Position numbers and translations under genes: made by a program. Below, piece after piece: positions 51 to 15,921 of a stretch of 15,921 nucleotides of DNA. The notes under the pieces were generated by a model. The model saw only the letters and a list, made by a program, of their open reading frames with translations. It made no database searches and had not been told where the DNA came from. Position 1 is the first letter of the stretch, and every line of letters starts with the position of its first letter. Location of the stretch: positions 1 to 15,921 of the forward strand of contig CAMWKY010000017.1 of assembly GCA_947174965.1 (NCBI GenBank), read 5' to 3'. Source of the DNA: an uncultured Ruminococcus sp. (GTDB lineage: Bacteria > Bacillota > Clostridia > Oscillospirales > Ruminococcaceae).

Positions 51-1382
51 ATGAATATACAGCTTTCAGACCACTTTACATATCATAAACTACTGCGTTT
101 CACTCTGCCGTCTATCATGATGATGATATTTACTTCAATTTACGGTGTGGTTGACGGTTTTTTTGTATCAAATTTTGTCGGCAAAACACCTTTCGCAGCT
201 GTAAATTTTATAATGCCTTTTCTGATGATACTTGGTTCTCTCGGCTCTATGTTCGGAACTGGCGGAAGTGCGTTGATTTCAATGAAAATGGGAATGGGAA
301 AGAAACAGGAAGCTAATGAGATTTTTTCATTGCTGATATACACATCTTTGATATTTGGAATATTTCTTTCCATTTTTGGAATAATATTTGTCCGTCCTGT
401 TGCATCTTTGCTTGGAGCAGAAGGAAAAATGCTTGATAATTGTGTGCTTTATGCAAGGATAATATTGATTGCACTTCCGTTTTTTATTCTGCAATACGGA
501 TTTCAGAGTTTCTTTGTTACAGCAGAAAAACCAAAGCTTGGACTTGCTGTAACAATAGCTTCGGGTATAACAAATATGATTCTTGATGCTCTGCTGATTG
601 CCGTGTTCAGATTCGGATTAGTCGGAGCTGCTGCGGCTACAGCAATAAGTCAGCTGGTAGGCGGTCTTATTCCACTGATTTATTTTGCACGAAAAAATAG
701 TTCACTGCTTCGTCTCGGCAAAACAGGATTTAACATAAAAGCACTGCTCCGAACTTTCACAAATGGTTCATCTGAACTTATGTCAAATCTTTCTTTGTCA
801 TTAATAAGTATATTTTACAATTCACAGCTTATGAAATATGCAGGGGAAAACGGTGTTTCGGCATACGGGGTGCTTATGTATGTCAATATGATATTTCTTG
901 CCACATTTATCGGATATTCTGTAGGAACTGCTCCTGTCATAAGCTATCATTATGGCGCAGGTAATACCGACGAACTCAAAGGACTGCTTAAAAAGAGTAT
1001 TCATATTATCAGTTGTTTTGCTGTCTGTATGCTTATCGCCGGCGAACTGCTTGCATATCCTTTAGCAAAACTGTTTGTTGGATATGACAATGAACTTGTA
1101 GAACTTACTCTTGGAGCATTCAGAGTATTTTCATTTTCATTTCTGTTTGCAGGTTTTGCGATTTTTGGTTCATCATTTTTCACAGCACTCAATGACGGTC
1201 TTACCTCTGCCCTGATTTCATTTTTCAGAACATTTGTTTTTCAGGCTCTTGCACTTATTTTTCTGCCAATGATATTTGGTATAAATGGAATCTGGTTTTC
1301 AATTGTGGTTGCAGAAATAATTGCTGTTGTATTGACCGCTGTATTTATAGTCAGAAAACGTAATGTATACCAATATTATTAA
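51..1382 (+). CDS. MATE-family multidrug/Na+ (or H+) antiporter, MepA-like
   Basis: Predicted 443-residue inner-membrane exporter of the MATE family, which expels cationic drugs or metabolites in exchange for Na+ or H+. The protein is almost entirely hydrophobic, with about twelve likely membrane segments and a polar middle linker near residues 215-235, matching the two-bundle MATE layout and the usual 440-460 length. Family-like features are the N-terminal LPSIMMMIFTSIYGVVDGFF stretch, a GTGGSALISMKMG segment near residue 70 and GAAAATAISQLVGGLIPL near residue 195, all resembling MepA-type proteins. The start at 51 lies 13 nt from an AAAGGAG site (31-37). That site is better spaced for an ATG at 43, which opens a three-codon reading frame ending inside the MATE start codon. 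The substrate cannot be read from sequence. The gene is monocistronic here and ends before the ATPase promoter. Confidence 0.9.
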   Translation: MNIQLSDHFTYHKLLRFTLPSIMMMIFTSIYGVVDGFFVSNFVGKTPFAAVNFIMPFLMILGSLGSMFGTGGSALISMKMGMGKKQEANEIFSLLIYTSLIFGIFLSIFGIIFVRPVASLLGAEGKMLDNCVLYARIILIALPFFILQYGFQSFFVTAEKPKLGLAVTIASGITNMILDALLIAVFRFGLVGAAAATAISQLVGGLIPLIYFARKNSSLLRLGKTGFNIKALLRTFTNGSSELMSNLSLSLISIFYNSQLMKYAGENGVSAYGVLMYVNMIFLATFIGYSVGTAPVISYHYGAGNTDELKGLLKKSIHIISCFAVCMLIAGELLAYPLAKLFVGYDNELVELTLGAFRVFSFSFLFAGFAIFGSSFFTALNDGLTSALISFFRTFVFQALALIFLPMIFGINGIWFSIVVAEIIAVVLTAVFIVRKRNVYQYY

Positions 1383-1466: not shown

Positions 1467-1553
1467 AACGGAATAGAATTTCAAAGGGGAGCTGTCTGTA
1501 GGAAGGTAGCTCCCTTTGCGTATATTCGTTCCGAATTGATGATAAAAGGGGGG
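1467..1553 (+). promoter_or_regulatory. structured 5' leader with hairpin and alternative pairing to the ribosome binding site
   Basis: The leader contains a 10-bp hairpin with one bulged G: AAAGGGGAGCT (1483-1493) pairs with AGCTCCCTTT (1508-1517) across a 14-nt loop. An outer 5-bp stem, CGGAA (1469-1473) with TTCCG (1529-1533), can close around it. The pyrimidine strand CTCCCTTT (1510-1517) is also complementary over 8 bp, with one G-U pair, to 1545-1552 of the AAAAGGGGGG ribosome binding site. The two pairings exclude each other. No uridine tract follows the hairpin closely enough to make it a normal terminator. A ligand or protein is not identifiable from sequence; I did not recognise a known riboswitch class. 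Confidence 0.5.
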
Positions 1554-1559
1554 ATTGGC

Positions 1560-1871
1560 ATGGCATCTGAAGCAGTTAAAAAGATACTTTCGGCTGAATC
1601 TGAAGCAGACAGGCTTAATGCTGAAGCACGAAAAAAAGCGGAGGAGATTATAAATTCAGCTGAACAGCAGGCAGTTGTTGACATACAGAAAAAACTTGCG
1701 GAAGCTAAAGCAGAAGCTGAAAAAATCAGAAAGTCAAATAATTCGAGGATTGCAGAGTATACCGAAAATGCAGAAAAAGAGTATGCAGGGATTCTTGAAA
1801 ATATACGCATGGATTCCGAAAAAAATGCAGATAAGGCTGTAGATGCAGTTATAAGCAGTTTTTTCAGCTGA
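1560..1871 (+). CDS. ntpF: V-type ATPase subunit G/H (peripheral stalk, NtpF-like)
   Basis: A 103-residue, highly charged, alanine- and glutamate-rich protein with heptad-like spacing along nearly its whole length. It contains no hydrophobic segment, as expected of the small coiled-coil stalk subunit (subunit G/H, AhaH/NtpF) that pairs with subunit E to hold the catalytic head against the membrane part. Similarity of low-complexity coiled coils is weak evidence by itself, but its position as first gene before subunit I is exactly that of ntpF in Enterococcus hirae. The ATG at 1560 is chosen because it lies 6 nt after the GGGGGG site (1548-1553). The in-frame TTG at 1536 and ATG at 1539 precede that site and sit in the leader structure. 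Confidence 0.85.
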   Translation: MASEAVKKILSAESEADRLNAEARKKAEEIINSAEQQAVVDIQKKLAEAKAEAEKIRKSNNSRIAEYTENAEKEYAGILENIRMDSEKNADKAVDAVISSFFS

Positions 1872-1908
1872 TGTAAAAGAGCTTTGAAAAAGGAGTGTGA
1901 TAAAATTT

Positions 1909-4352
<2,444 letters not shown>

Positions 4353-4365
4353 CGGAGGTGTGAAA

Positions 4366-4953
4366 ATGGCAGGACTTGAAAATATCCTGAACATAATATC
4401 CTCACAGCAGAAACAGACTGAAAATGCTGTAATTTCGTCTGCTGAAAAAAAAGCAGAGACTATTATAGCTGACGGAAATGAAAAAGCTGTAAAGGAATAT
4501 GATGAATATCTAAAAAAAGCTGAAATCCAGCTTGCACTTAATTATAACAATGCTTTATCATCAGTTGATGCACAGATGAAAAGAAAAGCTCTTGCATATA
4601 AAGTAAAGTGTATTGACGAAATCATTGAAAAAACTGTCAATAAGCTTAATAATCTTCCTGATGATGAATATTTTGATATACTCGAAAAACTTGTTTTACG
4701 CAGAGCAGATTCTGAAAATGGTGTGCTGTATCTGAATAAAAAGGACTATTCAAGAATTACCGAAAAATTCAGAAAAATCGTGCAGAAACTTGATATAACA
4801 ATTTCTGACGAATATGCAGACATTGAAAACGGCTTTATTTTAAGCTATGGACTTATTTCTGAAAACTGCTGTTTCCGTGCAATAATTGAGGCAGAACGTG
4901 AAAGTATAAGAGATACAGTTGCAAGAGAATTATTCGGGCAGGTGAAAAAATGA
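4366..4953 (+). CDS. ntpE: V-type ATPase subunit E (peripheral stalk)
   Basis: A 195-residue peripheral-stalk subunit. The N-terminal half (about 1-90) is a long charged helix suited to coiled-coil pairing with subunit G/H. The C-terminal half is a compact mixed domain including ENGFILSYG (about 153-161) and IEAERESIRDTVARELF near the end, typical of the E-subunit head that binds the A/B hexamer. The ATG at 4366 is chosen because it follows GGAGG (4354-4358) by 7 nt and lies 13 nt after the ntpK stop. In-frame starts further upstream lie inside ntpK. The last 4 nt overlap the start of ntpC. Divergence is high, as is normal for this family, and the call is secured by gene order. Confidence 0.93.
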   Translation: MAGLENILNIISSQQKQTENAVISSAEKKAETIIADGNEKAVKEYDEYLKKAEIQLALNYNNALSSVDAQMKRKALAYKVKCIDEIIEKTVNKLNNLPDDEYFDILEKLVLRRADSENGVLYLNKKDYSRITEKFRKIVQKLDITISDEYADIENGFILSYGLISENCCFRAIIEAERESIRDTVARELFGQVKK

Positions 4954-5888
4954 GTACGATTAAATATGCAAATGCAGTTGCGGCTGTAAAGGCTATGGAA
5001 AATACTCTCCTCACAAGAAATGATATGGAGCAATTTATCAATGCAACAAGCAAGGCTGAAATAAATTCGCTAATATCAGCAAAAAAGGGCGGCGAATCAA
5101 TATCATCTGAAAATGTATGGGAAATGATTCATGAATACGCTCCCGACAGCAAGGAACTTGAAATTCTGCTTTATAAAAATGATTTTCATAATCTCAAAGC
5201 AGTTTTAAAGTCCATAATTTCGGGCAGAAGTCCAGAGCAGTACTATATCCGCCCGACTAATCTTGACCTGATTCACCTTTTTGAGAATATTTCAGCAAAG
5301 GATTATGACAGTCTTCCCGAATTTATCAGAGATACGGCGGGGCAGGCATATAGACTTATTGTTGATACGTCCGACGGACAGCTTACCGACTCTTTTATAG
5401 ACTCTGCAACGCTGAAAGCAATGCAGAAAAGTGCATCAGAGTTCGGCAGTGAGTTCATGAAAAAGTATGCCAATCTCATAACTGTATGTTGCGACATAAA
5501 AACGGCTTACAGACTTAGCAAAATGAAAAAGCAGAAAAATTTTCTTGAGACAGCAATCTGCGGAAGTTCCGAACTTGACAAGGATTCACTGATAAGAGAA
5601 ACCCTGAACGGTACGGAAAGCCTTATGAATTTTCTTGAAAGCTCGTCATATGGTGAAGCAGTGCGACTTCTCAATGAATCACCTGCGCAGTTTGAGAAAT
5701 GGTGTGATGATGTCATAATGGAACTTGCTGAAACGGCAAGAATGAAGTCATTTGGTACTGAACCTCTGATAGCTTACTATATTGCATCTGAAGCAGAGGA
5801 AAAAAATATGCGTATTATCATGGTGTGCCGTGAATTTGGTGCAGACAAGGAAACAATTACAGAAAGAATGAGGAAACTTTATGTCTGA
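4950..5888 (+). CDS. ntpC: V-type ATPase subunit C/d (central stalk to rotor ring connector)
   Basis: A 312-residue subunit of the C/AC39 (d) family, which caps the K ring and couples it to the central D/F shaft. The opening KYANAVAAVKAMENTLLT resembles the family pattern in which a short N-terminal stretch begins helical repeats. The rest is predominantly helical and soluble, with a family-like NDFHNLKAVLKS segment near residues 77-88. The C-terminal region (about 270-312), with EAEEKNMRIIMVCR, is a recognised signature of this family. Start ATG 4950 overlaps the ntpE stop (ATGA), and the preceding site is weak (GGGCAGGTG), so translation is probably coupled to ntpE. The end overlaps the next start by 8 nt. 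Confidence 0.94.
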   Translation: MSTIKYANAVAAVKAMENTLLTRNDMEQFINATSKAEINSLISAKKGGESISSENVWEMIHEYAPDSKELEILLYKNDFHNLKAVLKSIISGRSPEQYYIRPTNLDLIHLFENISAKDYDSLPEFIRDTAGQAYRLIVDTSDGQLTDSFIDSATLKAMQKSASEFGSEFMKKYANLITVCCDIKTAYRLSKMKKQKNFLETAICGSSELDKDSLIRETLNGTESLMNFLESSSYGEAVRLLNESPAQFEKWCDDVIMELAETARMKSFGTEPLIAYYIASEAEEKNMRIIMVCREFGADKETITERMRKLYV

Positions 5889-6201
5889 ATTATTGAAAAC
5901 CGCTGTAATCGGTGATTCTGCGAGTGTTTCGGGATTTTCTGCTCTTGGACTTTCAGTATTCCGTGAAACAGAAGCGGACAAGGTTGCAAAGCTGATAAAC
6001 AGACTTGCATCAAGTGGTTTCGGGGTGATTTATATAACCGAACCCGTTGCAGTACTTGTCAGCGATACGATAAAAAAGTACAGAAGTCAGAAACTTCCGT
6101 CAATCGTGCTTATACCAGCAATTGAGGGCAATACGGGTGAGGGCATGAAGGGAGTTCATGAAACTGTTGAAAAAGCAGTCGGCTCTGATATATTGAGTTA
6201 A
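5881..6201 (+). CDS. ntpG: V-type ATPase subunit F (central stalk; NtpG)
   Basis: A 106-residue small soluble Rossmann-like subunit that binds subunit D in the rotating shaft. Matching features are the opening KTAVIGDSASVSGFSALGLSV, where an aspartate and glycines follow the first strand, FGVIYITEPVAVLV in the middle, and the basic-then-hydrophobic LPSIVLIPAIEG near residue 77. Length is typical (about 100-105). In E. hirae nomenclature this is ntpG, while archaeal and general nomenclature calls it subunit F, so the symbol should not be confused with the G/H stalk subunit. The start lies 8 nt inside ntpC and AGGAAA just upstream is a weak site, again suggesting translational coupling. Confidence 0.93.
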   Translation: MSELLKTAVIGDSASVSGFSALGLSVFRETEADKVAKLINRLASSGFGVIYITEPVAVLVSDTIKKYRSQKLPSIVLIPAIEGNTGEGMKGVHETVEKAVGSDILS

Positions 6202-6233
6202 TTAAATACTCTTAAATGAAAGGAGATACTAAT

Positions 6234-8000
6234 TTGAGCAGTATTGGAAAAATAGTAAAAATTTCAGGACCTCTTGTTGTTGCAGAGGGAATGAGAGATT
6301 CAAATATGTTTGATGTTGTCCGTGTAAGCAAGAAGCGACTTATCGGAGAGATTATCGAAATGCACGGCGACAGGGCATCTATACAGGTATATGAGGAAAC
6401 AGCAGGTCTTGGAACAGGTGAGGAAGTTGAATCAACAGGCGAGCCAATGAGTGCTGAACTTGGTCCGGGACTTATCGGAAGTATATATGACGGCATACAA
6501 CGTCCGCTTGATGCTATCCGTAAGGTATGCGGAAACAATCTTGCAAGAGGTGTTGAAGTAACATCTCTTAACCGTGACAGAAAATGGGCATTTACTCCAA
6601 CAGTAAAAATCGGTGATGAAGTTGAGGGCGGTGACATTATAGGAACTGTCCCCGAAACTGATATTGTTCTGCATAAAATCATGATACCAAACGGAATAAA
6701 AGGCAAAGTGAAGTCAATAAAAGAGGGTGAATTTTCAGTTGACGAGACTGTCTGCGTTCTTGAAACTGAAAAAGGCGACAAGGAAATAAATCTGATGCAG
6801 AAATGGGCGGTACGTCGTGGCAGACCGTATAAAAAGAAACTTTCTCCAGATATGCCGCTTGTAACAGGTCAGAGAGTTGTTGACTGTCTTTTTCCGATTG
6901 CAAAGGGTGGTGTTGCCGCAATTCCAGGACCTTTCGGAAGCGGAAAGACTGTCACTCAGCATCAGCTTGCAAAATGGGCGGAAGCAGATATTATCGTATA
7001 TATCGGCTGTGGCGAACGTGGAAACGAAATGACGGACGTTCTTAACGAATTTCCCGAACTTATTGACCCGAAAACAGGAAAATCACTCATGGAACGTACA
7101 GTTCTCATTGCAAATACATCTGATATGCCAGTTGCCGCACGTGAAGCATCAGTATATACAGGTATCACAATTGCTGAATATTATCGAGATATGGGATATT
7201 CCGTTGCACTTATGGCAGACTCAACTTCACGCTGGGCAGAGGCTTTGCGTGAGATGTCGGGTCGTCTTGAGGAAATGCCTGGTGATGAGGGCTATCCCGC
7301 ATATCTTGGAAGTCGTCTGGCTCAATTCTATGAACGTGCAGGACGTGTAATTTCAACAGGAACAGAGGGCAGAGAGGGTGCTTTGTCGGTTATAGGTGCG
7401 GTTTCGCCTCCCGGTGGTGATATATCTGAACCAGTTTCACAAGCAACTCTGCGTATTGTTAAAGTTTTCTGGGGACTTGATGCAAACCTCGCTTATCAGC
7501 GTCACTTTCCTGCTATAAACTGGCTTACAAGCTATTCACTTTATGTTGATTCGCTTGCCGACTGGTATAACAACAATGTCTCTGTGGACTGGATTAAACT
7601 CCGTGCAAGATTTATGTCTATTCTCAATGATGAAGCAGAACTCAAAGAAATTGTCAAGCTTATCGGTATGGACGCACTTTCAGCAAGCGACCATCTTAAA
7701 ATGGAGACTGCACGCTCAATCCGTGAAGATTTTCTGCATCAGCTTGCTTTTCATGAAATTGATACCTATACAAGTCTTAAAAAACAGCTTTACATGATGA
7801 AACTTATTCTGAATTTTCATGATGAAGCAGAATCAGCAGTTGCAAAGGGTGCGGACGTTGAGCAGATTGCAGAACTTGCTGTCCGTGAAAAAATCGGACG
7901 TTTCAAATATATCAAAGAGGAAGATACAGATGCAGAGTTTAATCATCTTTCAACTGAAATTTCTGCTGAAATTGATAAATGCAAGGAGGTTGTCGAGTAA
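6234..8000 (+). CDS. ntpA: V-type ATPase catalytic subunit A
   Basis: A 588-residue catalytic subunit that hydrolyses ATP in the A3B3 head. The Walker A loop GPFGSGKT occupies residues 232-239 with Lys238 and Thr239. GERGNEM follows with the catalytic glutamate at 261. These numbers are identical to the E. hirae enzyme. The N-terminal barrel begins [16 protein letters not shown], and the non-homologous insert typical of A subunits lies before the nucleotide domain. [20 protein letters not shown] is the conserved Walker B region. Start: an ATG at 6216 is in frame but overlaps the AAAGGAG site (6219-6225). The TTG at 6234, 8 nt downstream of that site, gives the family N-terminus and is preferred. 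The TAA stop overlaps the ntpB ATG by one base. Confidence 0.98.
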
Positions 8001-9376
8001 TGCCGAAAGAATACAGAACTATTGAAGAAGCCGCAGGTCCTTTGCTTCTTGTAAAAGGAGTTGAAAACTGCACATATGGAGAACTTGCTGATATTCGCCT
8101 GAAAAACGGTGAAAAAAGAAGATGCAGAGTACTTGAAATAAACGGAAATAATGCGCTTGTACAGCTTTTTGAAAATTCCGCAGGAATAAATTTACAGGAC
8201 AGTGCAGTAGTATTTACAGGTCACCAGATGGAACTTGGCGTATCAGAGGATATGCTCGGCAGAGTTTTTGACGGTATGGGCAACCCTATTGACGACGGCT
8301 GTGAGATTATACCCGAAATGCGTATGGACGTAAACGGACTGCCTATGAATCCTGTTGCAAGAAAATATCCGCAGGAATTTATACAAACTGGTGTTTCAGC
8401 AATCGACGGACTTAATACGCTTGTAAGAGGTCAGAAACTCCCGATTTTTTCAGCAAGCGGACTTCCTCATGCACAGCTTGCCGCTCAAATTGCAAGACAA
8501 GCACGTGTTCTTGGTGATAACGAACAGTTCGCCGTTGTATTTGCCGCTATGGGCATCACATTTGAGGAATCAGAATACTTTATAAAAAGTTTCAGGGAAA
8601 CAGGCGCACTTGACAGAACGGTACTATTTATAAATCTTGCAAATGATTCAGCTATAGAACGTCTTGCAACTCCGAAAATGGCACTTACAGCCGCTGAATA
8701 TCTTGCATTTGAAAAGGGTATGCACGTACTTGTTATATTGACCGACATCACAAACTATGCTGATGCTCTGCGTGAAGTTTCAGCCGCAAGAAAAGAAGTT
8801 CCCGGAAGACGTGGCTATCCCGGATATATGTATACCGACCTTGCATCACTCTATGAACGTGCAGGCAGACAGGACAACAAGGACGGCAGTATAACAATGA
8901 TACCGATTTTAACCATGCCCGAAGATGACAAGACACACCCTATTCCCGACCTTACTGGATATATTACAGAGGGACAAATTATTCTCTCACGTGAACTTTA
9001 CAGAAAAGGCATCAATCCGCCTGTTGACGTTTTACCGTCACTTTCACGTCTCAAAGATAAAGGTATTGGCAAGGGAAAGACACGTGCAGACCATTCCGAC
9101 ACAATGAATCAGCTTTTCTCCGCTTATGCACGTGGCAAAGATGCAAAGGAGCTTATGGTTGTACTTGGTGAAGCCGCACTTACTCCGACAGACTTACTTT
9201 ATGCAAAATTTGCTGATGAATTTGAAAAGCGTTACGTTTCACAAGGTTTTGAGAATAACAGAAGTATTGAGGAAACTTTGTCAATCGGCTGGGAACTTCT
9301 TAAACTGCTCCCACGCAGTGAATTAAGACGTATCAGAGAGGAATACCTTGCACAATATTATGATGAGCAGAATTGA
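8000..9376 (+). CDS. ntpB: V-type ATPase non-catalytic subunit B
   Basis: A 458-residue regulatory/nucleotide-interface subunit of the head. It is homologous to subunit A but lacks a Walker A loop; that place reads SASGLPH at residues 151-157, characteristic of B subunits. The arginine finger that completes the catalytic site is in SLSRL, with Arg350, the same number as in E. hirae. [19 protein letters not shown] and [20 protein letters not shown] are diagnostic stretches. The start ATG at 8000 follows AAGGAGG (7983-7989) by 10 nt. An upstream in-frame ATG at 7979 precedes that site and is rejected. Overlap with ntpA is TAATG. Confidence 0.98.
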
Positions 9377-9387
9377 GGTGAGTTTTT

Positions 9388-10038
9388 TTGGCAAGACTTA
9401 ATGTAAATCCGACAAGAATGGAGTTAAGCAGTCTCAAAAAAAAGCTTGCTTCCGCACAAAGAGGTCACAAACTTCTCAAAGACAAAAGGGACGAACTTAT
9501 GCGACAGTTTATGAATCTTATCAGGGAAAACAAGCAGTTACGAATTGAAGTTGAGGAAGGAATTGCAGAAGCAAATAAATATATGGCAGTTGCAGGCTCG
9601 GTAATGCAGAGGGAAGTACTCGAAACAGCATTAATGATTCCAAAACAGGAAGTTGAACTGGAAGTATCAGAAAAAAACGTCATGAGCGTGTATATTCCCG
9701 TGTTCAATCCGAAATACAGAACAGGTGATGCGGACGATATTTATTCATATGGTACAGCATTTACTTCTGTTGACCTTGATGGTGCTGTAAGTGCATTGAG
9801 TGATATTTTCCCGAAAATGATAAGACTTGCTGAAATAGAAAAGGCTTGTCAGCTTCTGGCAGATGAGATAGAAAAAACACGTCGCCGTGTAAATGCACTT
9901 GAACACATAATGATACCCGACTATCATGAAACAATAAAATATATCACTATGAAATTATCTGAAAATGAGAGAAGTACAACAACATCTCTCATGAAAGTAA
10001 AAGATATGGTGCTTAAACAAAGTCACAATTTCAGCTGA
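9388..10038 (+). CDS. ntpD: V-type ATPase subunit D (central rotor shaft)
   Basis: A 216-residue subunit forming the long antiparallel coiled-coil axle that turns inside the A3B3 head. The N-terminal segment RLNVNPTRMELSSLKKKL is a family signature, followed by RGHKLLKDKRDELMRQF. The C-terminal helix includes TRRRVNALEHIMIPDYH near residues 168-184, also a strong D-subunit mark. Start codon is TTG at 9388, preceded by a GAGGTGAG site (9375-9382) and a T-run. No in-frame ATG lies close enough to the family N-terminus. This is the second TTG start in the operon after ntpA. The stop is followed by a hairpin terminator, so no ntpH- or ntpJ-like gene follows. Confidence 0.97.
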   Translation: MARLNVNPTRMELSSLKKKLASAQRGHKLLKDKRDELMRQFMNLIRENKQLRIEVEEGIAEANKYMAVAGSVMQREVLETALMIPKQEVELEVSEKNVMSVYIPVFNPKYRTGDADDIYSYGTAFTSVDLDGAVSALSDIFPKMIRLAEIEKACQLLADEIEKTRRRVNALEHIMIPDYHETIKYITMKLSENERSTTTSLMKVKDMVLKQSHNFS

Positions 10039-10052
10039 TATTGCAGAAAAAG

Positions 10053-10081
10053 TCCACCGTCTTCATGAAAAAGACGGTGGA
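10053..10081. terminator. bidirectional rho-independent terminator between converging operons
   Basis: A perfect 11-bp stem, TCCACCGTCTT (10053-10063) with AAGACGGTGGA (10071-10081), closes a 7-nt loop. On the + strand it is followed by TTTATTTTTATTT. On the - strand the stem is followed by CTTTTTC. It lies 14 nt after the ntpD stop and 7 nt beyond the stop of the - strand acyl ligase gene, so it can end both transcripts. Confidence 0.92.
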
Positions 10082-10088
10082 TTTATTT

Positions 10089-11636
10089 TTATTTGATTAA
10101 TTCGCCGATTATGTCCTGTTTACGTTTTATTTTCTTTGAAGTTGTCTTATTGAACTCAACATCACGTATGCGCATACGTCTTATAGCTTTCGGGGTGGAA
10201 ACTGTTTTATTGACTTCTGAAACATGATTTGTAAAAAGCTCCTTTATCTTGTCAATGCCGTTTTCTGCAAGAAATTCCTGATTAGGATAAATTTCTGCTG
10301 TAATCTGTCCGTCCTCTGCGTATACAAGAACTTCTGAAAGCCAGTCAAGACCCGAAAACTTGTTTTCAAGTTCTTCCGGAGAAACATTTTCGCCGTTGCT
10401 TAAAATAATGAGATTCTTTTTTCTGCCGGTGATATAGAGATGATTTGTGTTGTCAACATAACCTAAATCACCTGTTCTAAGCCAGCCGTCTTCTGTAAGT
10501 GATTCTGCCGTAGCTTCAGGATTTTTATAATATCCTGCCATTACAGACGGACTTTTTGCCCATATTTCACCATCAACAATTTTAACCTGACAGCCGTTAA
10601 CAATCGTGCCGACGCTCTCCATATTTGTATCATCAAGATGAGCTGTTGATATTCTTGGTGAACATTCTGTCATGCCGTAACCTTGTGCTATTGGTATGTT
10701 GAAACTGCGGTAAGCTTCGGAAAGTGTGGGATTGAGATATGCACCACCGCTGTAAATTCCTCTGAGACGACCGCCGAATGTTGCAGTTGCAACGGCATTT
10801 ATATCTGCTTCGGGGTGAGCATCTGTAAAAGCCTTGATTTTTCTGTATATTGTTTCTGCAATCATAGGGACAAGAAGTATAATTGTAGGCTGGAAAAGCT
10901 TGAGATTCTGCGCTATGTGCATCATGGAATCATTTACGCATACCTGTGTGCCGTATCTGAGAGAAAGAAGTATATCGCAGGTAAAGCAGTATACATGATG
11001 AATAGGGAGAACAGACAGAAGCACATCACTTTCATCACTTTCATTATCCTGACACATTGTATTGTCGATAAAATTGCTGTGGAGAAGCATAACACCCTTG
11101 CTCAATCCCGTTGTACCTGATGTGAAAAGGATAGCTGCCAGACTATCAGGAGAAATTGGTGTCCACTCCATAGGCTCGTATGATTCAAGCACCTTTGCAA
11201 GACTTGTTTCGCCCTCAACTTCCTGCAATGATACAAAAGTCTTTACCATAGGGCAGTTTTTGCGGACAGCATCAAGCATTGGTACAAACTTCTTGTCAAA
11301 AAAGAATACTTCTGAATCAGAACGGCGGAGGTGGTCACATAAATCGTCCTCTTTCATCTGTGCATCAAGCGGTACAATGACATTTCCACTGCACGCCGTA
11401 CCGAAATATGCAGTAAGATATGCACTGCTTGTTGCACCGATTAATGAAGCATGAACTTTTTTTCCCTGTGTTTCTGCGAGAAACCTTCCTACACGCTTAC
11501 TGTTTTCGCAAAGCTGTCTGAATGACGTTTCAACAATGTTCTTTCCGATTTTTTCTTTGAGGAAAGTTTTATCTCCGTAACATTCTGCGGATTCTGCAAT
11601 TAAATCCTGCAATGTTTTTACTTTTGACTTATCCAT
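10089..11636 (-). CDS. AMP-forming acyl ligase (acyl-ACP/acyl-CoA synthetase-like adenylation enzyme)
   Basis: A 515-residue stand-alone adenylate-forming enzyme (ANL superfamily) that should activate a carboxylic acid with ATP and transfer it to a thiol. Core motifs occur in order: LFTSGTTGLSKGVM (170-183), YGMTE (320-324), TGDLGY (388-393), GRKKNLIILSNGENVSPEELE (404-424), and a C-terminal TSKKIKR with Lys502 in the place of the catalytic lysine. The PIHHVYCF stretch (211-218) resembles the PxxH motif of acyl-CoA and acyl-ACP synthetases more than the aspartate-bearing pocket of amino-acid-activating A domains, so a fatty or other non-amino acid is the likelier substrate (inference). It has no fused carrier domain. 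The gene lies 11 nt after an acyl carrier protein gene, the probable thiol acceptor. TAAGGAG precedes the start. Confidence 0.9.
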   Translation of the reverse strand: MDKSKVKTLQDLIAESAECYGDKTFLKEKIGKNIVETSFRQLCENSKRVGRFLAETQGKKVHASLIGATSSAYLTAYFGTACSGNVIVPLDAQMKEDDLCDHLRRSDSEVFFFDKKFVPMLDAVRKNCPMVKTFVSLQEVEGETSLAKVLESYEPMEWTPISPDSLAAILFTSGTTGLSKGVMLLHSNFIDNTMCQDNESDESDVLLSVLPIHHVYCFTCDILLSLRYGTQVCVNDSMMHIAQNLKLFQPTIILLVPMIAETIYRKIKAFTDAHPEADINAVATATFGGRLRGIYSGGAYLNPTLSEAYRSFNIPIAQGYGMTECSPRISTAHLDDTNMESVGTIVNGCQVKIVDGEIWAKSPSVMAGYYKNPEATAESLTEDGWLRTGDLGYVDNTNHLYITGRKKNLIILSNGENVSPEELENKFSGLDWLSEVLVYAEDGQITAEIYPNQEFLAENGIDKIKELFTNHVSEVNKTVSTPKAIRRMRIRDVEFNKTTSKKIKRKQDIIGELIK

Positions 11637-11647
11637 AAAAATACTCC

Positions 11648-11872
11648 TTATTTAAGACTTTCAATATACTTGATTGCTTCACCTACAGTTGTGATTTTGA
11701 GTACATCTTCTTCCTCAACTGTAATTTCAAAAGTCTCCTCAACTTCTCCGAGAAAACTCATGAAGTCGTATGAGTTGAAGCCTAAATCTTCAATGAAACG
11801 TGAGTTTTCTGTAACTGCGCTTTCCTCAACATCAACATAATTTACAATGATTTCTTTAATCTGCTCAAACAT
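11648..11872 (-). CDS. stand-alone acyl/peptidyl carrier protein
   Basis: A 74-residue acidic four-helix carrier protein. The phosphopantetheine site reads DLGFNSYDFMSFL with Ser34 as the attachment serine. The usual DSL is replaced by NSY, which is uncommon for housekeeping AcpP and fits a dedicated carrier. Length and charge are normal for the family. It is the only carrier in the cluster and sits between the condensation-domain gene (31-nt gap) and the acyl ligase (11-nt gap), so it probably accepts the ligase product and presents it for condensation. AAAGGAG lies 8 nt before the ATG. No phosphopantetheinyl transferase is encoded in the window, so one from elsewhere must activate it. Confidence 0.93.
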   Translation of the reverse strand: MFEQIKEIIVNYVDVEESAVTENSRFIEDLGFNSYDFMSFLGEVEETFEITVEEEDVLKITTVGEAIKYIESLK

Positions 11873-11903
11873 AGTAAAATCTCCTTTATATATTATTGTT
11901 TGC

Positions 11904-13310
11904 TTATATCATATCAAGAATTTCGCCAATTGTGCGGTTGCTGTTCTCAATTCCTCTGAATATTACACGGCAGAGGTAGTAATAGAAATATTCCATTTCA
12001 TAATCAGTTACAGCGGCTTTCTGATACTCAAAGTTAAAGTTAAGTCCACCGTCTTCTACACGGTGCATAACTGTAAGATAAAGTGGCTGTGCGGCAACAC
12101 CGTTCGTATACCAGAAGCTCTTATACGGAATATCAGGAATATCATCTGATGTCTGCTTCATTGACATTGGCTGATAGGTAAGACTAAGACTTTCATAAGT
12201 CTTGCCCTGAGTATTCCAATGATTAGCCGACATCATCATCTGTGCGACTGAATCATAATTGGCATGACGGAAAATAGCGTTCTGCTTTTCCTGATACATT
12301 TTAAGACCGTCCATAAAAGTCATATCGGGACTCATGATTGTACGAATCGGGAAAAAGTGTATTCTTGTACCGCCTGAACGCTTTTCAAGAAGTGTGCCAC
12401 GTCTTGCAACGCAGGTTCTGACAGAAACATCTTTTTCATTATCGTTGAACTTCGAAAGAACTGTCCTCAATCCCATAAGGAGCAGGCACACAACAGGAAC
12501 ATGATTTTCCTCGCAGAATTTCAGCAAACGGTCGGACGGTTCTTTTTCAAGCTGAAAAACAGATATTGAAGCACGGGTATCTGTCTTTTTGTTGCTTGCG
12601 GCTCTTAAATTCGGGTTATTTTCCTCACGTCTTTGAGTAATCAGCTTGCCCATACCGTTAAAATCAGTATACATAGGCTCACTTTCTGTTGTTATATCTT
12701 TCCAGAACTTCTCATCTTTCTGACGTGCCGGAGAATTTGCCTCATATGCAAGGTCTTTTTCAAGGCACTTGATATATGACTGCATAGGCTTCGGATATTC
12801 AGTGCCGTAACGTTTGTTGCAGTAAATCTGGAGAACATCAGAATAAAAAGTGATGATAGAACTTGAATCCATTGTCATATGGTCAACTTTGCTGTATATA
12901 CCGTTATAGCCGTCGGGGAGTTTAATCATTTTAATGAGATTCATGGGTGAGTTGAATCTCTCAAAAGGTACAGCAGTCCATTTACGCATTTCATTATGTG
13001 CATCTTCTTCATTCCAGTTTGAAAAATCGACAAGTTCAATATCTCTGTCATCAAATGGCACAAGATACTGTAAAACATCACCGTTTTCCTCCTGATAGAA
13101 ACGGAGACGCATTGAATCAAGACGATTATATGCCTCCTTTATAGCACTTTTAAGAAGATTGAAGTCCGTATCCTGCTGAATATACAAGCCAGTTCCTATA
13201 TTAAGAAGCTGATGAAACGGACAGGAAAGTCTTGAAAAATTGTGAATACGCTGTGCGGCTGTAAGCGGATAAGCTTCAACCTTAACGCTGTTGATGATTA
13301 ATTCTTTCAT
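11904..13310 (-). CDS. free-standing NRPS condensation-domain protein
   Basis: A 468-residue protein of the condensation (C) domain / CoA-dependent acyltransferase fold, with no fused adenylation or carrier domain. The N-terminal PLTAAQRIH (15-23) matches core motif C1. The active-site motif HHxxxDG is present as DHMTMDS at residues 143-149: the second, catalytic histidine (His144) and the structural aspartate (Asp148) are kept, while the first His is Asp and the Gly is Ser. GGTRIHFFPIRTIM (313-326) fits the C5 strand, and VAAQPLYLTV near 405-414 matches the later conserved strand. Full two-lobe length (about 450) is present. It most likely joins the carrier-bound acyl group to an amine or alcohol. 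The second substrate is unknown. AAAGGAG lies 8 nt before the ATG. Confidence 0.85.
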   Translation of the reverse strand: MKELIINSVKVEAYPLTAAQRIHNFSRLSCPFHQLLNIGTGLYIQQDTDFNLLKSAIKEAYNRLDSMRLRFYQEENGDVLQYLVPFDDRDIELVDFSNWNEEDAHNEMRKWTAVPFERFNSPMNLIKMIKLPDGYNGIYSKVDHMTMDSSSIITFYSDVLQIYCNKRYGTEYPKPMQSYIKCLEKDLAYEANSPARQKDEKFWKDITTESEPMYTDFNGMGKLITQRREENNPNLRAASNKKTDTRASISVFQLEKEPSDRLLKFCEENHVPVVCLLLMGLRTVLSKFNDNEKDVSVRTCVARRGTLLEKRSGGTRIHFFPIRTIMSPDMTFMDGLKMYQEKQNAIFRHANYDSVAQMMMSANHWNTQGKTYESLSLTYQPMSMKQTSDDIPDIPYKSFWYTNGVAAQPLYLTVMHRVEDGGLNFNFEYQKAAVTDYEMEYFYYYLCRVIFRGIENSNRTIGEILDMI

Positions 13311-13330
13311 GATTAAAACTCCTTTATTTT

Positions 13331-14287
13331 TCAGACAGTTTCGGGAATCCAGTTATTTATAAACTCAATTTCCTTGCTTTCATATTGCTCTGTATTTTCA
13401 TATGCACTTGCACCATGACCCGCATTTTCCACAACAAGTATATCTTTCGGTGCAATGCAGGCATCATAATTTTCATATACCATTCTTGTTGGTACAAAAT
13501 TATCTAATTCTCCGTGAATGAACAGGACAGGACGGTCATTTGTTTTCATAGCCGTGATTGTTGAATAGTCATCAAAGCCATATCCTGCTTTTTTTCTGCA
13601 CATCATTGAATTTATCTTCATAACAGGAAATTCAGGTATATGATAGTCACGTTTCAGAATATGTGCAAAAACATCATGCGGAGAAGTAAATGCGCAGTCG
13701 CTTATGATGCATTTTACATTCTCTGGAAATTCGGGAAGTCCAGATGCCATAAGAACTGTTGTTCCACCCATTGATGTTCCGTGCAGAAGTATTCTTACAT
13801 CTTCACCGAAACGCTTGATAACATAGTTAATCCATGAAATGCAGTCGAATCTGTCAAGAATACCAAAACCGATATAATCGCCCTCACTGTCTCCATGCGC
13901 TCTGTGGTCGGGCATAAGGCAGTCAAAACCTTGTCTGTGGAAAAAATATGCGTGAGAAGACGAATCAAGACCCTTGCTTGTGTAGCCGTGTTCTATAATT
14001 GCAACTCTGCCGGTCGGCTTTTCAGCAGGAAGATACCATGCGTGAAGTCTGATACCGTCACGTGCTGTAATATATATTTCCTCAAGATTTTGAGAGCGTA
14101 CCCACTCGCCACGTGGAGTAAGAGTTTTTTTGTATTCCTCCCACTTTGCCATATCTGCCATTTCGTTGAGATCAACTTTTACACCGTCCTGACGTGGTAT
14201 TACCTTATTAAAAAGGGTATATGCGGCATATACCGAAACAGCTCCTGCAACAGTAACAGTTCCGAGTACAGCATTTAACAATTTCAT
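13331..14287 (-). CDS. membrane-anchored alpha/beta hydrolase
   Basis: A 318-residue serine hydrolase with an N-terminal hydrophobic anchor (about residues 3-25), so the catalytic domain probably lies outside the membrane. The oxyanion-side EHGYTS (99-104), nucleophile elbow GTSMGG (Ser172), acid in GELDNFVP (Asp262) and histidine in NAGHGAS (His291) make a full triad. It resembles the YqkD/COG1073 group of esterase-like proteins. As first gene of the operon, 20 nt before the condensation-domain gene, it could release, cleave or export-process the product, or detoxify a related ester; none of these can be chosen from sequence. The ATG at 14287 is preferred. A TTG at 14329 would start inside the operator with a very short leader and no ribosome binding site. 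Confidence 0.85.
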   Translation of the reverse strand: MKLLNAVLGTVTVAGAVSVYAAYTLFNKVIPRQDGVKVDLNEMADMAKWEEYKKTLTPRGEWVRSQNLEEIYITARDGIRLHAWYLPAEKPTGRVAIIEHGYTSKGLDSSSHAYFFHRQGFDCLMPDHRAHGDSEGDYIGFGILDRFDCISWINYVIKRFGEDVRILLHGTSMGGTTVLMASGLPEFPENVKCIISDCAFTSPHDVFAHILKRDYHIPEFPVMKINSMMCRKKAGYGFDDYSTITAMKTNDRPVLFIHGELDNFVPTRMVYENYDACIAPKDILVVENAGHGASAYENTEQYESKEIEFINNWIPETV

Positions 14288-14310
14288 TTGATAAAAGCAC
14301 CAGCTTTCTG

Positions 14311-14333
14311 AAATTTGACTGTCGGTCAAATTT
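14311..14333. promoter_or_regulatory. TetR-type operator 1 (downstream of the - strand start point)
   Basis: A perfect 9-bp inverted repeat, AAATTTGAC and GTCAAATTT, is separated by 5 nt. The core TTGACnGnCnGTCAA is shared with a second site centred exactly 45 bp away. It lies just downstream of the predicted - strand start point, in the hydrolase leader, where a bound repressor would block elongation or initiation. The divergently encoded TetR protein is the obvious ligand. Confidence 0.8.
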
Positions 14334-14345
14334 CTGTTTTTTTAT

Positions 14346-14374
14346 ATTCTATCACGGATTTGACCGCCGGTCAA
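14346..14374 (-). promoter_or_regulatory. sigma-A promoter of the hydrolase/condensation/ACP/ligase operon
   Basis: Read on the - strand, a -35 box TTGACC (14374-14369) is followed after exactly 17 nt by a -10 box TAGAAT (14351-14346). Each matches consensus at five of six bases. The start point is expected near 14339, giving a leader of about 50 nt. The -35 box is one arm of operator 2. Confidence 0.8.
14360..14374. promoter_or_regulatory. TetR-type operator 2 (over the -35 box)
   Basis: TTGACCG-C-CGGTCAA is a perfect 7-bp inverted repeat around one central base. It shares the TTGACnGnCnGTCAA core with operator 1. It covers the -35 box of the - strand promoter, so repressor binding should exclude RNA polymerase. 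It lies about 20 bp upstream of the tetR -35 region, so an effect on tetR itself is less certain. Confidence 0.8.
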
Positions 14375-14393
14375 GTGTTTTTCAAAAAAAATA

Positions 14394-14422
14394 TTGCATT
14401 TTTCAAAAGTTTGTGATATAAT
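14394..14422 (+). promoter_or_regulatory. promoter of the tetR gene
   Basis: A perfect -10 box TATAAT (14417-14422) preceded by TGA makes an extended -10. The -35 position 17 nt upstream reads TTGCAT (14394-14399), a poor match that an extended -10 can tolerate. The start point is expected near 14429, with AAGGAGG (14438-14444) 10 nt before the start codon. Confidence 0.7.
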
Positions 14423-14454
14423 TAAAAAAAATCCATGAAGGAGGATAATATTAT

Positions 14455-15066
14455 ATGAAAATTGATAAGAGAGAGCAGATACTTGAATCGGCGCAGGAAC
14501 TTATGTGCCAGATTCCTGACAAGGATATTTCCGTAAATCTTATTGCCCAGAAGGCAGGAATTGCAAAAGGCGGAGTTTACTATTATTTCAAGAGCAAGGA
14601 CGAAATACTTGACGCTGTAATCGAAAAATGCTATAAAAATGCGATACATGAATTTTTCAGGGGTCTTGACTATGAGGGAACGTCATTGCAGAAGATAAAG
14701 TTGTTGTTTCAGTCAATAATAAAAAGTGAGTTCAGCAACAATGAAAAAAACCTTATTTTAAGTTTGCACCTAAGCGAAAATATACAGCTTCACAACAAAA
14801 TGAAAATGATTGCCGTTCAGGAAATTTCACCCATTCTAACGGCACTGCTTCAGCAAGGTTGCGCAGAGGGAAGTATACAAACGGAATATCCGAAAGAAAG
14901 CGCAGAAATGATTGTTGCAGTTATCACATTTTTTCTTGATACCAGTCTTTTTCCGTCCGACAGTATTTCAACATATCACAAATTGAAAATATTTGCTCAT
15001 GTTCTTGAAACAAGTCTTCATGCTGTTCCCGGAAGTTTCAACTTTCTTTTTGAGCCGATTCCGTGA
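14455..15066 (+). CDS. TetR/AcrR-family transcriptional repressor
   Basis: A 203-residue one-component regulator. The N-terminal domain (about 1-55) shows the TetR helix-turn-helix: KREQILESAQELM, then ISVNLIAQKAGIAKGGVYYYFKSKDEIL, with the typical YYYF and KDEIL positions. The C-terminal region is helical and variable, as expected of a ligand and dimerisation domain. It contains EISPILTALLQQG near residues 122-134. The gene is divergent from the hydrolase operon, and two matching palindromes lie between them, so it is very likely the operon repressor, released by an unknown small molecule, perhaps an acyl compound. There is no evidence linking it to the MATE pump, which lies 13 kb away. Confidence 0.93.
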   Translation: MKIDKREQILESAQELMCQIPDKDISVNLIAQKAGIAKGGVYYYFKSKDEILDAVIEKCYKNAIHEFFRGLDYEGTSLQKIKLLFQSIIKSEFSNNEKNLILSLHLSENIQLHNKMKMIAVQEISPILTALLQQGCAEGSIQTEYPKESAEMIVAVITFFLDTSLFPSDSISTYHKLKIFAHVLETSLHAVPGSFNFLFEPIP

Positions 15067-15134: not shown

Positions 15135-15473
15135 ATGGACGGAATTATTATCACTGTTGCTGTTGTTCTTGGTGTTATAGCTTTTATTGAAATTATATCG
15201 CTGTTTTTCACGATACCGCTTGAAAATTCTCCGCCATATGTTACAGTTCTACCTGTTTTTTCGGAGGACGAACAGTTTCAGCAGAGACTTGAATATATCA
15301 TGCAGAAAAGCTGTGGCAGAATCAATATAATTATTGTGGATTATTCTGCAAATCCGCTTCAAAAGGAGCTTTGCAGGCAGTTTACAGAGGATAATCCTGA
15401 TGCTGTTTTTATTTCCAGCAATGAACTTGAAAAATATTTTGCTGAAACATTTGCAATTTCCGAAAAAATATAG
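15135..15473 (+). CDS. small single-pass membrane protein of unknown function
   Basis: A 112-residue protein that I do not recognise. Residues 4-27 form one strongly hydrophobic segment, with few charges before it, giving an anchored protein with a soluble C-terminal part. That part alternates strand-like and helix-like stretches: YVTVLPVF, EQFQQRLEYIMQ, INIIIVDYS, QKELCRQFTED, AVFIS and ELEKYFAETF, which suggests a small beta-alpha-beta (Rossmann-like) fold. No catalytic motif is visible. AAAGGGG (15119-15125) precedes the ATG with 9-nt spacing. It lies 68 nt after tetR and 40 nt before the recD2 start, and the recD2 promoter overlaps its end, so the two can be transcribed separately. Confidence 0.7.
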   Translation: MDGIIITVAVVLGVIAFIEIISLFFTIPLENSPPYVTVLPVFSEDEQFQQRLEYIMQKSCGRINIIIVDYSANPLQKELCRQFTEDNPDAVFISSNELEKYFAETFAISEKI

Positions 15474-15513: not shown

Positions 15514-15921
15514 ATGAGCAATGAAGATTTGCGAATTGAAGGCACAGTTGAAAAAGTTATATTTTTTAACGAAAATAACGGCTATACTGTTATAAAACTT
15601 GAAACAGACGACGGACTATTTTCTGTTGTCGGAAATCTTGGCAAGATTGATGAGGGCGAAAGCCTTATTCTTGACGGAAAATTTGTTGTCAATCAGAAAT
15701 ATGGTATGCAGTTTGTAGCTCAATATTGTGAGAGAAAACTTCCTGATACATCTGTAAATATCGAAAAATTTCTTGCATCTGGAGCAATACAAAGTATAAC
15801 AAAATCAATTGCAAAGAAGATTATAAATGCTTTTGGTGATGATACACTGAATATCATGGAGAAAACACCTGAAAGACTTACAGAAATAAAAGGAATCTCA
15901 CAGAAAAGGTGTGATATGATA
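15514..15921 (+). CDS. recD2: RecD2-like SF1B DNA helicase, N-terminal part (runs off the window)
   Basis: The first 136 codons of a gene with no stop before the window end. The N-terminus LRIEGTVEKVIFFNENNGYT is the typical opening of RecD2 (RecD-like helicase without RecBC). An OB-like region follows (about 6-72), with VVGNLGKIDEGESLILDGKF and KYGMQFVAQ. Then SGAIQSITKSIAKKIINAFG and LTEIKGISQKRC (about 86-132) match the helix-hairpin-helix region that precedes the helicase core. RecD2 proteins unwind DNA 5' to 3' in repair and replication stress. The Walker motifs lie beyond the window. GAGGTGG (15503-15509) is the ribosome binding site, and the full protein should be about 720-750 residues. 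Confidence 0.92.
   Translation, partial: MSNEDLRIEGTVEKVIFFNENNGYTVIKLETDDGLFSVVGNLGKIDEGESLILDGKFVVNQKYGMQFVAQYCERKLPDTSVNIEKFLASGAIQSITKSIAKKIINAFGDDTLNIMEKTPERLTEIKGISQKRCDMI

Follow-up and report, generated by a model that had tools for sequence, protein, structure and literature searches.

The DNA window examined here, a stretch of 15,921 nucleotides that makes up an entire contig (C17) of a Ruminococcus genome (2.33 Mb in 371 contigs, 83% complete), very probably carries a fatty-acid-amide (FAA) synthetase operon of the kind found in gut Clostridia, the product of which would with high probability be an N-acyl amide. The assignment follows from the 40% identity between its stand-alone condensation protein and OaaC, from a fully supported clade that unites the two, and from a common DHxxxDS motif. 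Beyond the described FAA core, the locus features a membrane-anchored hydrolase gene placed before that of the condensation protein and a promoter whose -35 box overlaps a TetR operator, an overlap that recurs in relatives. On this reading, a large Ruminococcus/Oscillospiraceae branch belongs to FAA-type chemistry, to which it adds a conserved hydrolase and a clear-cut switch.

Organization of the Locus

Four minus-strand genes, separated by gaps of 20, 31, and 11 nt, encode the hydrolase, the condensation protein, the carrier protein, and the ligase, with a TetR-family gene diverging from them:

10050..10084, scored on both strands: terminator-like hairpin, between the converging upstream genes and the operon
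10089..11636, minus strand: acyl ligase (stand-alone adenylating enzyme, A); Pfam AMP-binding, 1.1e-60
11648..11872, minus strand: acyl carrier protein (ACP), 74 aa; PP-binding, 1.1e-10; predicted phosphopantetheine Ser34
11904..13310, minus strand: stand-alone condensation protein (C; putative amide synthase), 468 aa, motif DHMTMDS; Condensation, 4.9e-39
13331..14287, minus strand (listed ORF 13331-14329): membrane-anchored alpha/beta hydrolase (HYD); Abhydrolase_1, 7.1e-14
14455..15066, plus strand: TetR-family regulator; Pfam TetR_N, 2.3e-10

This architecture of four tightly spaced genes, a TetR gene facing away from them, and a matched pair of operators had been outlined in the initial annotation and is confirmed throughout by open reading frames, Pfam matches, and gap lengths; its view of the ligase as an enzyme of the acyl-CoA/acyl-ACP synthetase type is likewise supported. 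For the hydrolase, the ATG at 14287, giving a protein of 318 aa, is the likelier start; the TTG of the listed frame (14329) was rejected, as it falls within the proximal operator.

Read by eye, the remainder of the window features a MATE-like transporter gene (51-1382, plus strand) and an A/V-type ATPase-like operon (1536-10038, plus strand), on which the FAA-type operon converges. At the other end, the 5' part of a RecD2-type helicase gene (15514-15921, plus strand; TIGR01448) is truncated by the contig end, and the 112-aa ORF ahead of it (15135-15473) has no Pfam match and only sub-threshold NCBIfam matches. A near-identical locus is present in a Ruminococcus sp. MAG (L024), the C protein of which is 99% identical to that of the window.

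Conservation of the Four-Gene Unit

A pattern scan of a contig collection returned 200 confirmed relatives, the best 80 of which were retained; the record titles of these 80 name Ruminococcus, Ruminiclostridium, Oscillospiraceae, or Clostridia, with one Alistipes, and several relatives come, by the same titles, from the guts of deer, sheep, and goats. Among the best 80 of the 200, the hydrolase-C-ACP-ligase order and orientation are preserved in all 73 loci that have the four genes, an arrangement far from chance, and the earlier supposition that these neighbors are conserved together in related genomes is thus borne out. Within the same set, the hydrolase lies directly before C in 77/77 close relatives whose contig reaches that far, the other three being uninformative on this point, with C starting at contig base 1, 2, or 104. 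The ligase is found downstream of C in 76/80; L061, L083, and L085 are truncated by contig ends, and in L086 (6543-13540) the hydrolase and C are present, with ACP and ligase absent from the 7 kb downstream. The flanks of the window, by comparison, recur in at most 2/80 loci (L024 shares RecD2, the 112-aa ORF, and the ATPase subunit with the window, and L025 the first two), and therefore the operon block stands on its own.

Across the class, the C protein occurs in 21 of 391 genomes, the window's own included. In the 20 more distant loci, the hydrolase is present in 11 (L122, L123, L127-L135) and was not found in nine (L124-L126, L136-L141), among which L124 has fewer than 700 bases upstream and L126 ends inside C; ACP and ligase were also not seen within the 3.7 kb of L141. 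Two loci of the window's genus, L020 and L021, likewise returned no hydrolase, the former with fewer than 700 bases upstream. At L135, the hydrolase is immediately preceded by an SCP2 lipid-transfer gene (9437-9928, minus strand), from which a TetR relative at 9967-10614 diverges.

The Condensation Protein and OaaC

Over residues 13-467, the C protein matches PDB entry 12kh with 399.6 bits (E 1.5e-118), the next PDB sequence following at E 6.7e-05, and the two proteins are 40% identical across 461 columns. The entry is assigned to OaaC of Coprococcus eutactus in the data statement of PMC13142362, a preprint; OaaC is a 40%-identical homologue of the window's C protein, not an orthologue. The preprint credits discovery of the oleoyl-aminovaleric-acid (OAA) pathway to Chang et al. 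2021 and describes three free-standing proteins, OaaA (the ligase), OaaACP, and OaaC, the last being a stand-alone condensation domain that joins an ACP-bound fatty acid and aminovaleric acid into an amide (PMC13142362). OaaC, together with its ligase and ACP, formed amides in vitro with a free amine, and its homodimer is described as concealing the carrier-protein site. FAA clusters at large are characterized in the same text by separate A, ACP, and C proteins and a (D/H)HxxxDS-type motif, whose last position is taken by Ser in 42% and by Ala in 36% of 127 FAA domains, and starter C domains are given as the nearest clade (PMC13142362).

The window displays four of the features that mark such clusters: a free-standing ligase gene by the C gene, a separate ACP with its serine, a C protein of the OaaC clade, and a (D/H)HxxxDS-type motif. 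A further mark of the FAA kind is that acyl-ACP, not acyl-CoA, is the donor for its amides with small free amines. The motif (D/N)HxxxDS is present in all of the best 80 of 200 relatives, with DHMTMDS matched in 71, N-initial forms in three, and the six missed by the motif pattern showing DHMTMDS (five) or DHMTADS (one) in the printed stretch.

The relationship is further defined by a C-domain tree of 60 rows, comprising the window, 20 of the 80 contig-collection loci, 21 other loci, OaaC, and 17 controls hand-chosen from 46 PF00668 matches in related genomes, with L133 omitted. A clade of 42 rows with 100/100 support contains the window, OaaC, and 40 others, and none of the 17 control C domains, which include no verified starter domains and for which "NRPS" is a loose label. 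Six of these 17 are without H-H-x-x-x-D at the searched place (two of the six having a chance pattern only), NRPS_L172 has NHxxxDG, and L147 and L160 lie in frames of under 500 aa; NRPS_L172 and n_L141 form long branches of unsure placement. The window's genome, at 83% completeness, holds no second PF00668 match. To our knowledge, no activity has been assigned to the subclade of the window's C protein.

These comparisons revise the initial annotation in several respects. Its proposal of an inducible pathway that activates an acid, loads it on a carrier, and condenses it into an N-acyl small molecule is supported. A described system with such content, which the annotation was unable to name, is found in the FAA clusters of gut Clostridia, whose ligase/ACP/C core is the same. 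Homologous clusters with an assigned product do exist for the OaaC relative, but not for the exact subclade of the window. As for the product, the N-acyl option is retained, whereas the O-acyl and surface-polymer options appear much less likely, since OaaC, whose motif is of this type, forms its amides from a free amine in the work described in PMC13142362.

Carrier Protein and Its Activation

Adenylation motifs are kept across 71 aligned ligases and the carrier Ser34 across 78/78 aligned ACPs, the window being included in both sets. Homologues of phosphopantetheinyl transferase are found in 10 of the 106 loci scanned, in which at least three places are counted twice (L014/L047, L016/L052, L018/L090). 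In nine of the ten the gene is cluster-adjacent (L032, L038, L042, L087, L122, L123, L127, L129, L132) and in L046 it lies several kb off; in L127 it sits between the ACP and ligase genes. All four homologues checked were confirmed by Pfam:

L127, 3930-4493, minus strand: phosphopantetheinyl transferase gene
L038, 5349-6011: phosphopantetheinyl transferase gene
L042, 5372-6001: phosphopantetheinyl transferase gene
L129, 5188-5865, minus strand: phosphopantetheinyl transferase gene

Such genes beside FAA-type clusters support a phosphopantetheine-carried acyl group; the window's genome has one transferase gene, away from the operon. A group II decarboxylase (PF00282), which might serve as a local amine source, gave a single match of 25.1 bits against a cut-off of 27 in this 83%-complete genome.

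A Predicted TetR Switch at the Operon Promoter

The intergenic region between the hydrolase and TetR genes contains the following predicted elements:

14315..14329: proximal TetR operator (predicted), TTGACTGTCGGTCAA, 15 bp, beyond the predicted transcription start
14346..14374, minus strand: operon promoter (promoter scan), -35 TTGACC (14374-14369), 17-nt spacer, -10 TAGAAT (14351-14346), TG before the -10
14360..14374: distal TetR operator (predicted), TTGACCGCCGGTCAA, 15 bp, overlapping the -35 box
14394..14422, plus strand: possible tetR promoter, TTGCAT - 17 nt - TATAAT, found by eye and below the scanner threshold

The left half of the distal operator doubles as the -35 box; the proximal operator begins 45 bp on, which, given a start near 14339, would place it some 10-25 nt into the transcript. 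The operon promoter is one of five top-scoring sites (10 of 12) and the only one among them to carry TG ahead of the -10, in a scan of the region that produced 27 promoter-like sites vs. 16.8 (sd 4.1) in shuffles.

This geometry recurs in relatives. Where a TetR neighbor is present, an operator is found upstream of the hydrolase in 38/38 loci, and two or more in 34, with chance occurrence at about 0.04 per shuffled stretch (the shuffles preserving base composition only). TetR-less loci with more than 1 kb upstream of the hydrolase have an operator in 9/27 and none in 18/27, and the switch is not universal among relatives; the nearest upstream genes of these 27 fall into 24 clusters. Fisher's test of 38/38 vs. 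9/27 gives p 9e-10, a value that ignores relatedness, uses nine hand-counted loci, and includes among the 27 a locus with a TetR remnant (L034). Of 57 operator-bearing sequences, 31, with the window among them, have a -35 box that begins precisely where an operator does (about 0.1-0.2 expected, by a rough estimate), and all but one of the 31 (30) have another operator 40-45 bp further along. Among 36 pairs of operators, TTGACC (30) and TTGACT (six) account for the left half of the distal member, whereas in the left half of the proximal member TCGACC occurs 19 times and TTGACC seven times, the window having TTGACC in both; the double duty of the distal half as -35 box would explain the difference. 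In L034, two operator-like sites lie beside an ORF (5033-5821, minus strand) that opens with a sequence similar to the last part of the TetR protein (profile E 1.2e-8), which suggests a disrupted or misassembled regulator gene. L088, for its part, has five operator-like sites, not two, in the 400 bases upstream of the hydrolase.

By profile, the regulator best matches 3b81 (5e-27); it also matches 3whb (2.3e-14), annotated as "Fatty acid metabolism regulator protein," and, with scores similar to that of 3whb, 1vi0 and 5gp9, both FadR proteins. The presence of a fatty-acid metabolism regulator (3whb) among these matches makes an acyl ligand plausible.

Conservation and History of the Hydrolase

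After removal of two fragments (L067, L080) from 89 collected sequences, S172, D262, and H291 are conserved in 87/87 aligned hydrolases, and on the basis of motif we read them as the catalytic triad. The N-terminal hydrophobic stretch is present, with more Lys/Arg after than before it in 77/87, fewer in seven, and equal numbers in three; by the positive-inside rule, this excess predicts a cytoplasmic catalytic domain. By profile, most solved relatives are esterases, including 5g59 (1.9e-24) and cinnamoyl and chlorogenic acid esterases, with monoacylglycerol lipase a weak match and gamma lactamase the weakest among the matches listed; the NCBIfam N-acyl-homoserine lactonase model scores a weak 41.6 bits (cut-off 400).

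Trees of C and hydrolase from 85 loci have 45/82 splits in common, vs. at most three in 200 label permutations, and the corresponding distances correlate at 0.91, vs. at most 0.31 in 500 permutations. Such agreement fits co-inheritance, and shared species descent could give the same. Within the 42-row clade, hydrolase-bearing loci form a grade within which OaaC branches together with the four loci nearest to it (L136-L139, 52-56% identical to OaaC), none of which yielded a hydrolase match; surrounding support is 95/95 for a 36-row group and 97/94 for a 13-row group that includes eight hydrolase-bearing loci. Hydrolase presence costs two changes on this tree, and a gain plus a loss is as costly as two gains. 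We favor one gain followed by loss in the OaaC lineage, because the hydrolases on either side of the OaaC branch are homologous (39-44% identical to the window's) and occupy the same place before C. Within the main text of PMC13142362, the words "hydrolase," "TetR," and "Ruminococcus" do not occur, and no description of a hydrolase-bearing FAA cluster was recognized in the titles and abstract openings covered.

Proposed Pathway and Alternative Readings

Given the gene content, motifs, clade, operator/promoter geometry, and conservation laid out above, we infer activation, loading, amide formation, and repression by homology. The ligase would adenylate a fatty acid and charge the ACP with it at the phosphopantetheine arm, and the C protein would then pass the acyl group to the nitrogen of a small amine that diffuses freely. 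Bound to both operators, at the -35 box and early in the transcript, a TetR protein resembling FadR would keep the operon off until a ligand, at a guess acyl-CoA, fatty acid, or product, frees it and turns the operon on. For the membrane-tethered hydrolase, the leading guess is action on cytoplasmic acyl esters or thioesters, by which it would either free fatty acid or clear misloaded ACP.

Three alternative readings keep this core and differ in the role of the hydrolase. A possible though uncertain role is release of the fatty acid substrate from membrane or imported acyl esters, as suggested by its membrane anchor and by solved relatives that are mainly esterases, with monoacylglycerol lipase weakly among them, although hydrolase relatives span many substrates. 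Doubtful, in our view, is an editing function, in which an enzyme of the type II thioesterase kind strips wrong acyl groups from the ACP of such a core: its fixed place before C, its co-inheritance with C, the Ser-Asp-His residues in 87/87 sequences, and the predicted cytoplasmic catalytic domain all argue for it, but the solved relatives are mainly esterases, the protein is anchored whereas known type II thioesterases are soluble, and no hydrolase turned up in L136-L139, the closest loci to OaaC, whose ACP has the same misloading problem. That the enzyme breaks down the FAA product or a related amide, for turnover or self-protection, seems unlikely; it shares an operon with the synthase, serine hydrolases can cleave amides, and both gamma lactamase (the weakest profile match listed) and N-acyl-homoserine lactonase (41.6 bits vs. 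400) appear among its weak matches, yet synthase and hydrolase co-made from one promoter would run a futile cycle.

A more radical departure, in which the FAA-like core yields O-acyl esters, or attaches acyl groups to a glycolipid or surface polymer at the membrane, and the hydrolase remodels the product, is highly improbable. Condensation-fold enzymes are able to form esters and the hydrolase does carry an N-terminal hydrophobic anchor, but the window's C protein shares both clade and DHxxxDS-type motif with the amide-forming OaaC, and the flanks vary, with the window's neighbors in at most 2/80 loci and 24 upstream clusters in the 27 TetR-less ones.

Returning to the FAA synthetase operon that we prefer, a broader proposal can be entertained with considerable doubt: the hydrolase may be an ancestral fourth enzyme of a large gut-FAA branch, lost in the structurally solved branch, that couples synthesis to membrane lipid turnover, and under a fatty-acid-responsive FadR-like repressor such operons might convert host or dietary lipid into amide signals on demand. 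Products of a fatty acid and a small amine can mimic human signaling lipids. Gut-bacterial FAAs are described as acting on human G-protein-coupled receptors in PMC13142362, and the conserved hydrolase and switch make the inputs and the induction of such FAA pathways testable.

Comparison with Known Systems

Canonical NRPS condensation domains have the Condensation fold (PF00668) in common with the window's C protein; however, they carry HHxxxDG within multidomain proteins, whereas the window encodes a 468-aa stand-alone protein with DHMTMDS, and a canonical NRPS identity was rejected on motif, single-domain size, and tree position. FadR-type regulators of fatty-acid metabolism, which bind acyl-CoA and control fatty-acid genes, resemble the TetR protein by profile (3whb), while its best match, 3b81, is an uncharacterized regulator and the NCBIfam FadR model scores 46.3 bits, below the cut-off of 200. 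The OAA pathway is the closest counterpart, with a free-standing ligase, ACP, and C protein, a common C-domain clade, a DHxxxDS motif, and an origin in gut Clostridia. It differs in that, as described in PMC13142362, it consists of three proteins; it was reconstituted without a hydrolase, so that the enzyme's part in the window's pathway is a putative one. In the window, a hydrolase and a TetR/operator switch are added to the common core.
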